Part shown: in pieces, positions 26,738-30,749 of the stretch
How the letters are laid out: each line of letters opens with the position of its first letter
Numbering within the stretch: the stretch's first letter is position 1
DNA from: an uncultured Pelagibacteraceae bacterium
Lineage (GTDB): Bacteria > Pseudomonadota > Alphaproteobacteria > Pelagibacterales > Pelagibacteraceae
Reading direction: 5' to 3'
Length of the DNA: 64,000 nt
Assembly: GCA_902564245.1 (NCBI GenBank)
Contig: CACFAF010000004.1
Location: forward strand, 1 to 64,000
Notes under the pieces: generated by a model
Database searches by the model: none
Seen by the model: only the letters and a program-made list of their open reading frames with translations
Told to the model about the DNA's origin: nothing
Made by a program: the position numbers and the translations under genes

Positions 26738-27307
26738 TTATTTTTTTTCTGGAATACTTTCTGGTTTTTTTTCTATTTTAGCTGCAGTCTTAGCTTTAAT
26801 ATCTTTATCTTTTTTAACTTCAGCTGATGATGCTGTTTCTACTTTAGCTTCAACTTCTGGCTTTTTTATAATAGGAGCTACATTTTCTTCAATAACTGGC
26901 TCTTGTTGAACTCCAATATCTATTCCAATTTTCTTTTTAATTTTTTCTGCAATTCTTGCTGATTTTCCAGTTCTATCTCTTAAATAGTATAATTTAGCCC
27001 TTCTTACTTTCCCTGATCTTGTGACTTTAATTGAGTCGACTATTGGACTATAAAGAGCAAAGGTTCTTTCTACACCTTCGCCAAAAGATATTTTCCTAAC
27101 TGTAAAAGATGAATTAATATTTCTACTTTTTTTTGCAATACAAACTCCTTCAAAATATTGAATACGTTCTCTTTTACCTTCGGTAATCCTAACACCTACC
27201 TTTATTATATCCCCAGGAAAAAATTCTGGTATTTTTTTTTCAGACAGTATTTTTTTTATATTTGCTTGATTTATTTCTTCAATTGTTTTCATGTTAATAT
27301 TTATCAA
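26738..27307 (-). CDS. rplS: 50S ribosomal protein L19 with C-terminal extension
   Basis: [26 protein letters not shown]...[34 protein letters not shown], then a ~65-residue K/E/A-rich tail. Confidence 0.95.
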
Positions 27308-27308
27308 T

Positions 27309-27995
27309 TTAATTCTTTTTATATTTTTGCCATAAATCTGGTCTTCGGACGCGAGTTATAGCCTCAGATTGAGACAAACGCCAGTCTTTAATTTTGGCAT
27401 GATCTCCGGATAATAGCACTTCGGGTACACCTTTTTTCTCCCAAATTTGAGGTTTTGTATACTGAGGATATTCTAACAATCCATTTTCAAAACTCTCGTC
27501 TATTTTAGAATTATTATTACCAATTACTCCAGGAAGTAATCTTAAAATACTATCTATGACAACAAATGCAGCAGTTTCACCTCCAGATAAAATAAAATCT
27601 CCAATACTTATTTCTTCTATATTTCTCGTTGTTAGAACTCTTTCATCGACTCCCTCAAAATGTCCACAAATTAAGTTTATTGATTTTTCTACTGAAAGTT
27701 CTTTAGCAAGTTTTTGATCAAATTTTTTTCCCTTTGGTGAAAGATAAAAAATTCTTTCTCCATTTTTATAATTTTGATCAATCGATTTTGCTAAAATGTC
27801 TGGTTTCAATAGCATTCCTGATCCACCACCAAATGGGGTATCATCTACTGTTTTATGTTTATCTTTTGCAAAATCTCTAATATTTATAATTTCTAAAGAC
27901 CATATTTTTTTTAACAAAGCTCTTCCGTACAGCCCATTTGCTAAAGGCCCGGGGAAAGTCTCAGGAAAAAGTGTAAATATTTTAGCGTTCCACAT
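27309..27995 (-). CDS. trmD: tRNA (guanine-N1)-methyltransferase
   Basis: [46 protein letters not shown]. Confidence 0.97.
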
Positions 27996-28000
27996 AAATC

Positions 28001-28393
28001 TTATTTTTTAGCTTCTGCTTTAGGTGCTTCCTCTTTTTTAGCTTCTGCTTTAGGTGCTTCTTTAGCTTCTGCTTTAGGTGCTTCCTCTTTTTTTCTATCT
28101 TTTTTAGGGATAGATTTTTGAGGATTATTTCCTTTAGCTGGCATAGGCATTAATTCTTTTTCACCAAGTATTCTTGCTACTCGCATGGTTGGCTGAGCTC
28201 CTTGTTCTAACCAATATTTAATTCTTTCTTTTTCTAATCCAATTCTTTCAGCCTTTTCTTTTGGCAATAAAGGATTAAAGAAACCTAGTTTTTCAATAAA
28301 TCTACCATCTCTTGCAAAACGGCTATCTGCAACTACTATTTTATAAACAGGTCTTTTTTTTGTTCCACCCATTGATAATCTTAATTTTAACAT
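28001..28393 (-). CDS. rpsP: 30S ribosomal protein S16 with repetitive C-terminal tail
   Basis: [42 protein letters not shown], then (K)[10 protein letters not shown]-type repeats. Confidence 0.96.
28004..28092 (-). repeat. In-frame tandem repeat in rpsP 3' end (~30-bp unit, 3 copies, one shortened)
   Basis: agcttctgctttaggtgcttc occurs three times in tandem, separated by ctctttttt or ttt. Confidence 0.9.
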
Positions 28394-29773: not shown

Positions 29774-29789
29774 AATTTTACCCAGCAGC

Positions 29790-29881
29790 TATCGCACCAG
29801 TGGGCGAACCCTCGCAGACTGGTGTCGATCTCTTTGTTGCCAAAGACACCGCAAATTGCTTATTTTGCGGAAACTGCGATA
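29790..29881 (-). ncRNA. Candidate structured leader RNA of ffh (cis-regulatory element or sRNA)
   Basis: Minus strand TATCGCA-GTTT-CCGCAAA..TTTGCGG-TGTCTTTG-GCAA-CAAAGAGATCGACACCAGT..GGG-TTCG-CCC-ACTGGTGCGATA. 7-bp closing helix (29875-29881 with 29790-29796) around three hairpins; locally GC-rich in an AT-rich genome. Confidence 0.7.
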
Positions 29882-29882
29882 A

Positions 29883-29908
29883 ACTATAATAGAGGTTCAA
29901 AAAGTCAA
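29883..29908 (-). promoter_or_regulatory. Possible promoter for ffh leader
   Basis: Minus strand TTGACT (29903-29908) and TATAGT (29883-29888). The 14-nt spacer is shorter than ideal, so this is tentative. Confidence 0.3.
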
Positions 29909-29930
29909 TAAATAAGTTAAATATTATTAT

Positions 29931-30749
29931 ATGGAAATCAAAGCTTTTAAAATGGATGGTTTAGGAAATGATTTTGTAATCATTGAGACAAAAAAAAGAA
30001 ACCCTATTTCAATCAGTAAAGAAAAAATTATTGAATTAGGAAAAAGAGATAGCATCGGTTTTGATCAAATGATATTTGTTGAAGAAGATGGTGTAATATC
30101 AAATCATGCTTCAATTAAAATATTCAACTCTGATGGAGATGAAGTTGATGCGTGCGGTAATGGAAGCAGATGCGTTGCAAAAATTATATGTGATAAAAAA
30201 AAAACAGAAGCTGCCGTTATTGAAACTTCAAATAGAATTTTAAAGGCTCAGAAAATTTCTGATAATAGTATAAGACTAGCAATGGGTGAACCAATCTTTG
30301 ATTGGAAAAAAATTCCTTTATCAGAAAATATAGATCATAAAAAAATAAACCTAAACATTGATGGGATAGAATTAAAAGAGGGTTTTGCCCTAAATGTTGG
30401 TAATCCTCATATAGTTTTCTTTGTCGAGAATTGTTTTAAATATGATTTAAAAAAAATAGGACCATTAATAGAAAACTACAAACTATTTCCAGAAAAAATA
30501 AATGTTACATTTGCTGAAAGAAAGAGTGCTAATAATATTTTTGTAAATGTATGGGAGAGAGGTGCTGGATTAACTAAAGCATGTGGTACGGCTGCTTGTG
30601 CTACAGGGGTAGTAGCTTTTGAAAAAAGTTTAGCAGGAAATAGTACAAATATTCATTTTAAAGAAGGCTTTTTAAATATTGAATATGATACAAATATTTC
30701 AATGACAGGACCGGTTTCAGATATTAAGGAAATTAAAATAAAATTATAA
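29931..30749 (+). CDS. dapF: Diaminopimelate epimerase
   Basis: MDGLGNDFVIIE, DACGNGSRCVAK, WERGAGLTKACGTAACA. Confidence 0.97.
   Translation: MEIKAFKMDGLGNDFVIIETKKRNPISISKEKIIELGKRDSIGFDQMIFVEEDGVISNHASIKIFNSDGDEVDACGNGSRCVAKIICDKKKTEAAVIETSNRILKAQKISDNSIRLAMGEPIFDWKKIPLSENIDHKKINLNIDGIELKEGFALNVGNPHIVFFVENCFKYDLKKIGPLIENYKLFPEKINVTFAERKSANNIFVNVWERGAGLTKACGTAACATGVVAFEKSLAGNSTNIHFKEGFLNIEYDTNISMTGPVSDIKEIKIKL

Follow-up and report, generated by a model that had tools for sequence, protein, structure and literature searches.

A structured RNA upstream of ffh in a SAR11 bacterium and its candidate role in a ribosomal-protein operon

Immediately upstream of ffh, in a stretch of 64,000 nucleotides from an uncultured Pelagibacteraceae bacterium (the whole of which we call the window), a block at positions 29790-29881 raises a simple question: does the RNA that it encodes serve the SRP, whose gene it precedes, or the ribosomal-protein genes that follow in the same operon? 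The sequence and coordinates of the block were verified by direct reading of the window. The original prediction took it for a genuine structured RNA, and rightly so: the strand in the ffh sense folds at -40.5 kcal/mol and the opposite strand at -40.3 kcal/mol, both far better than shuffled sequences (z of -4.7 and -5.9, respectively).

Identity of the RNA and its gene context

The element is not new: its ffh-proximal half is the catalogued RNA RF01793. When the whole window is scanned with cmscan, the sole match above threshold is to this family, labeled "ffh" in Rfam, with 50 bits for a gathering score of 35 and an E-value of 1.7e-6. The earlier suggestion that the block might correspond to an existing Rfam entry thus proves correct, and the family is known rather than novel. 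The match and the genes that follow it, identified as open reading frames and by tblastn, are:

29787..29839, minus strand: match to RF01793 (ffh sRNA) by cmscan, covering the 3' part of hairpin P3 and hairpin P4
28415..29773, minus strand: ffh (SRP GTPase), here the first gene of the operon
28001..28393, minus strand: rpsP (ribosomal protein S16)
27309..27995, minus strand: trmD, with no rimM between rpsP and trmD
26738..27307, minus strand: rplS (ribosomal protein L19)

Meyer et al. (2009) described the ffh motif from Ca. Pelagibacter as one hairpin with a bulge, placed upstream of ffh, with a distribution that includes Rhodobacterales, Sphingomonadales and Rhizobiales; almost all published cases lie upstream of ffh, and from this position the authors considered a role linked to the SRP possible (PMC2704228). 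The copy in the window is the same motif: it gives the 50-bit match, it stands before ffh in the same genus, and it has the two conserved bulge cytosines (PMC2704228). In genome G011, which we take as HTCC1062, the motif at 260205-260256 falls inside the published ffh intergenic region, 260190-260348 (PMC2704228). RF01793 is carried by 177 of the 198 genomes sampled from the SAR11 order, and by 80 of the 290 sampled from the class Alphaproteobacteria.

The sequence of the window, taken by itself, can be drawn like a cloverleaf, and one could read it as an unrelated RNA: an SRP RNA, a tRNA-like cloverleaf or a piece of tmRNA. This reading is almost certainly wrong. ARAGORN finds neither tRNA nor tmRNA in the window; at this spot, cmscan gives no match to the bacterial SRP RNA (RF00169), even at a relaxed threshold, and RF01793 is still the only credible family there; and helix P1, which would close the cloverleaf, is not conserved, as we detail below. 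The remark that this is no obvious SRP RNA or tRNA therefore stands. An alpha_tmRNA of 227 bits lies at G000:C9:13058-13356, so that the tmRNA is elsewhere than the block; this contig has a second, weak match (26 bits) at a distance of 1.7 kb, at G000:C9:15043-15134.

What ties the RNA to SRP RNA (4.5S, RF00169) is a name and the gene neighbourhood of Ffh; the two differ in that SRP RNA has a separate gene in HTCC1062, at G011:C1:493568-493660 (locus L221, 269-361). This SAR11 SRP RNA scores 37.5 bits for an Rfam cut-off of 40, and standard annotation may miss SAR11 copies. A search of the window's own genome with RF00169 found no SRP RNA, but such a search can miss SAR11 copies.

The order of the operon in the window is ffh-rpsP-trmD-rplS-leuC. 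In each of the 39 other operons from SRP-containing genomes, within the length of the stretch that was read, ffh comes after the RNA, and next come rpsP, in most cases rimM, and then trmD and rplS. A few Rhodobacter-like genomes have genes inserted between ffh and rpsP, and there the RNA stays with ffh, which counts against reading it as a leader of the ribosomal-protein genes. The absence of rimM from the operon (window 27995-28001) holds for SAR11 family f1 (loci L283 and L285 too); family f2 keeps rimM (L284).

Promoter, hairpins and tail

The features that we assign to the leader, in the order of transcription, are:

29903..29908, minus strand: -35 element TTGACT of the ffh-operon promoter, with conserved TTGAC
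29881..29886, minus strand: likely -10 element TAGTTT, with a spacer of 16
29849..29870, minus strand: hairpin P2, CCGCAAA (29870-29864) with UUUGCGG (29855-29849)
29826..29851, minus strand: hairpin P3 with its base extension, from alignment, RNAalifold and shuffle tests
29851-29848 with 29829-29826, minus strand: base of P3, CGGU with AUCG, from the RNAalifold extension
29846-29841 with 29836-29831, minus strand: upper arms of P3, UCUUUG with CAAAGA, around a GNRA loop (29840-29837)
29795..29824, minus strand: hairpin P4, with outer helix CACCAGU/ACUGGUG, mismatches, and inner helix GCGA/UCGC
29774..29794, minus strand: single-stranded tail with conserved [UC]UGG, running to the ffh start codon (29773)

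The promoter is conserved across Alphaproteobacteria. Of the 98 representative sequences, 97 have a TTGAC some 70 nt before the motif, where about 7 would be expected, at a distance of 61-75 nt in SAR11 and in the family f40 introduced below, and of 54-99 nt in the class, with group medians of 63-71 nt; in 88 of these 97, a TA follows at 16-18 nt. The transcript would accordingly be predicted to start at about 29873-29876.

In order to evaluate the helices, we aligned 30 diverse copies from the SAR11 order, and scored each helix by the percentage of cells that are paired: 93.3% for P2, 87% for P3, 95% for P4, and 54% for P1. The three hairpins of the original prediction, CCGCAAA/UUUGCGG, CUUUG-GCAA-CAAAG and the long hairpin ACCAGU/ACUGGU, are all present and conserved, and the cloverleaf holds across the SAR11 order as far as P2, P3 and P4 are concerned. 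Its closing helix does not. In the proposed register, TATCGCA/TGCGATA, 48.1% of the cells are paired, and the mean of the shuffles is also 48.1%. The alternative register, preferred by the minimum free energy fold, reaches the mere 54% given above, and when the fit of each 5' strand to its own 3' strand is compared with permuted pairings, p is 0.02 for f1, which is marginal, 0.97 for f2 and 0.37 for the class. Since P1 pairs no better than shuffles and fails the duplex test outside f1, it is not supported. Transcription is predicted to start within or downstream of its 5' strand, 29881-29875, which would be largely untranscribed if that prediction is right.

P3 covaries across Alphaproteobacteria. 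Six of the seven pairs of its upper part are changed on both sides in the 30-copy alignment, and RNAalifold extends it downwards by CGGU/AUCG, in which C-G becomes U-A in five sequences. Compared to shuffled upstream sequence, the extended P3 has combined p values of 4.6e-21 in f1, 3.3e-13 in f2, 1.6e-5 in f40 and 5.3e-13 in the class, all of them optimistic because the species are related. The base takes the forms CGGU/AUCG, CAGU/AUUG and CAAU/AUUG in f40. The loop is a GNRA in 116 of the 117 SAR11 copies with CUUUG/CAAAG arms, and its N position is variable; a GNRA loop kept on this strand supports transcription of the minus strand, in the direction of ffh, as had been argued from the window.

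The nucleotides of P3 are left unpaired in the structure line of Rfam. The published model of RF01793 consists of P4 alone, as a bulged hairpin, and the 15 nt that precede it, unpaired there, are here the 3' arm of P3; P2, the promoter and the tail are likewise added. The RNA is thus larger than its Rfam model shows, with P3, the overlap between P2 and P3, and the promoter going beyond the catalogue.

The case of P2 is more restricted. Its pair G24-C45 is swapped for A-U in five sequences of the SAR11-order alignment, while the z-scores of hairpins in the 5' region carry no signal supporting P2 in the class; consequently, we claim P2 for SAR11 only. Within SAR11, the CGG of GCGGU is common to the 3' arm of P2 and to the base of P3, and the two helices, using the same nucleotides, compete: the leader can take two forms. 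The C of CGGU pairs with column 24 in P2, or with column 70 in P3. Over 100 distinct SAR11 sequences, column 24, this C and column 70 read G-C-G in 87 cases and A-U-A in 8; among the remaining five, three retain both pairs, whether wobble or standard, and one of the pairs is broken in the other two. Both pairings thus appear to be kept, as two mutually exclusive states would require, but all the A-U-A cases may go back to one evolutionary event, which makes the support for two states suggestive only.

The outer helix of P4 covaries strongly, and its inner helix GCGA/UCGC is invariant in SAR11 and covarying in the class; the cap GGG-UUCG-CCC that had been drawn at its tip is not conserved, the family keeping the GCGA/UCGC pairing instead. 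Between the two helices, the window has the mismatches C29817.C29802 and U29816.C29803. The C.C mismatch, formed by the two bulge cytosines of RF01793, is present in 96 of 98 representatives, and at the position beside it most relatives have A.C or a standard pair. In the tail, UUGG or UUUG is found in 52 of 59 class sequences, compared to about 25 expected from shuffles. The end of P4 is about 21 nt from the start codon of ffh in this genome; across the class, it ranges between about 20 and 80 nt, and a mechanism of simple ribosome-site occlusion cannot therefore be general.

The possibility of a stable small RNA acting in trans, processed or terminated from the leader, with the operon as its mere source, should be weighed here. 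RF01793 is classed as an sRNA in Rfam, a small transcript was found in marine metatranscriptomes (PMC2704228), and the RNA is seen in Bartonella RNA-seq; moreover, a UUUU follows P4 in 23 of 59 class sequences, for 4 in the control stretch. However, only 1 of 31 SAR11 representatives has this UUUU, and the RNA always has the same direction and stands just ahead of whichever gene opens this operon, even where ffh is missing. We thus hold a trans-acting RNA to be rather unlikely. The contrast between 23/59 and 1/31 also led us to reject P4 as a general intrinsic terminator.

Genomes without SRP proteins

We now turn to an alphaproteobacterial family with genomes of about 1.4 Mb, labeled f40 (genomes G235, G341, G421 and G484-G498; loci L223-L225 and L237-L249). 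No ffh was found in any of its 18 genomes, which are drafts, six of them at least 93% complete, and searches for ftsY return only weak P-loop matches of at most 26 bits; secY is found in 15 of the 18. Apparently, then, these are bacteria without the SRP protein pathway. Nevertheless RF01793 is retained in 14 of the 18 genomes, and its presence does not depend on a detectable ffh gene. At the loci that were read (13 loci and L225), it stands 26-33 nt before rpsP, between a divergent dapF and the genes rpsP-rimM-trmD-rplS-leuC-leuD. The description "just upstream of ffh", true for the window and its SRP-containing relatives, is false in f40.

Here a natural experiment has dissociated the RNA from the SRP proteins: the latter are lost, and the former is kept before rpsP. 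It makes regulation specific to the SRP unlikely, and does not sit with the SRP-centred role of the original prediction, nor with the SRP-linked role proposed for RF01793 (PMC2704228). A regulator of that kind would have Ffh, or its complex with 4.5S RNA, bind the leader and adjust the translation of ffh. It would explain why the RNA immediately precedes ffh in all the SRP-containing genomes read and in almost every published case (PMC2704228), and P4, a hairpin with an internal mismatch, is in this respect like helix 8 of the SRP. But to the 14 genomes with the RNA upstream of rpsP must be added that Meyer et al. found no similarity with the site that Ffh recognises on 4.5S RNA (PMC2704228), and that HTCC1062 has its separate SRP RNA: we consider an SRP-specific regulator improbable.

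With an operon that lacks rimM in f1 and one that lacks ffh in f40, rpsP, trmD and rplS are the genes found in every context. This favours a cis-acting leader of the ribosomal-protein genes, with S16 as the first candidate ligand and L19 as the second.

A candidate autogenous leader

It is then natural to conjecture that the RNA is a 5' leader of the ffh-rpsP-trmD-rplS operon, some 100 nt long, acting in cis and autogenously, with S16 or else L19 as candidate ligand, a proposition to which we would give even chances. The idea of a cis-regulator, put forward on the window alone, would probably survive, though for a ribosomal-protein operon rather than for the SRP. A broader conjecture, on which we would stake slightly less than even, is that RF01793 is misnamed, and would be an autogenous two-state leader of rpsP-(rimM)-trmD-rplS across Alphaproteobacteria, with ffh carried along at its head in most lineages, and lost in one. 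Two observations agree with what is expected of such leaders: a structured RNA lies in the 5' UTR of a ribosomal-protein operon, both in the window and in f40, and its secondary structure is conserved and covarying.

Under these conjectures, the leader would start at the conserved promoter, fold into P2, P3 and P4, and exist in two forms, depending on whether the 3' arm of P2 or the base of P3 holds the CGG. A ribosomal protein of the operon, most likely S16, else L19, may bind P4 at the conserved C.C/A.C mismatches; the bound ligand would shift the balance between P2 and P3, and the shift would lower initiation on the first gene, whose start codon is about 21 nt away. As for a resemblance to the rRNA site of the ligand, frequent but not obligatory in such leaders, the readable 5' part of the 16S contains one match, which is not meaningful, the other rRNA being masked.

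There is always the possibility that the 5' structure is constitutive and free of any ligand, and that it stabilises the mRNA or sets a level of translation. Stable hairpins at the predicted extreme 5' end of the transcript would suit this role, and the RNA has no known ligand; yet a hairpin that only needs to be stable would not require a near-invariant C.C/A.C, a [UC]UGG tail, or a GCGGU strand constrained in two ways. A ligand-free structure keeps, in our opinion, a minor share of the probability.

The autogenous leader that we prefer can be compared to two others. The L19 leader of Firmicutes (Rfam RF00556) precedes an operon that encodes L19. The likeness is that of a leader of an operon with L19, in another phylum; cmscan gives no match to RF00556 at this spot, relaxed threshold included. 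In Flavobacteria, rpsP-rimM is preceded by a candidate S16 leader (PMC7247131). It is directly before rpsP and rimM, as the RNA is in f40, but it belongs to a different phylum, and the likeness is one of gene position; moreover, ffh lies between leader and rpsP in most Alphaproteobacteria.

According to a 2024 review, there is no information on how the rpsP-rimM-trmD-rplS operon is regulated (PMC10931766). If the conjecture is true, this RNA, catalogued and linked to the SRP by position since 2009, would be the first control element identified for that operon in Proteobacteria, and it would couple the production of the SRP with that of ribosomes in SAR11, which are among the most abundant cells of the ocean. 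The revised structure, with P3, its overlap with P2, and the promoter, names the exact bases on which tests can be made.

Finally, the -35 element of the ffh promoter is only 22 nt from the start codon of the divergent dapF (window 29903-29931), so the promoter of dapF necessarily overlaps with the leader region, or with the RNA gene itself.
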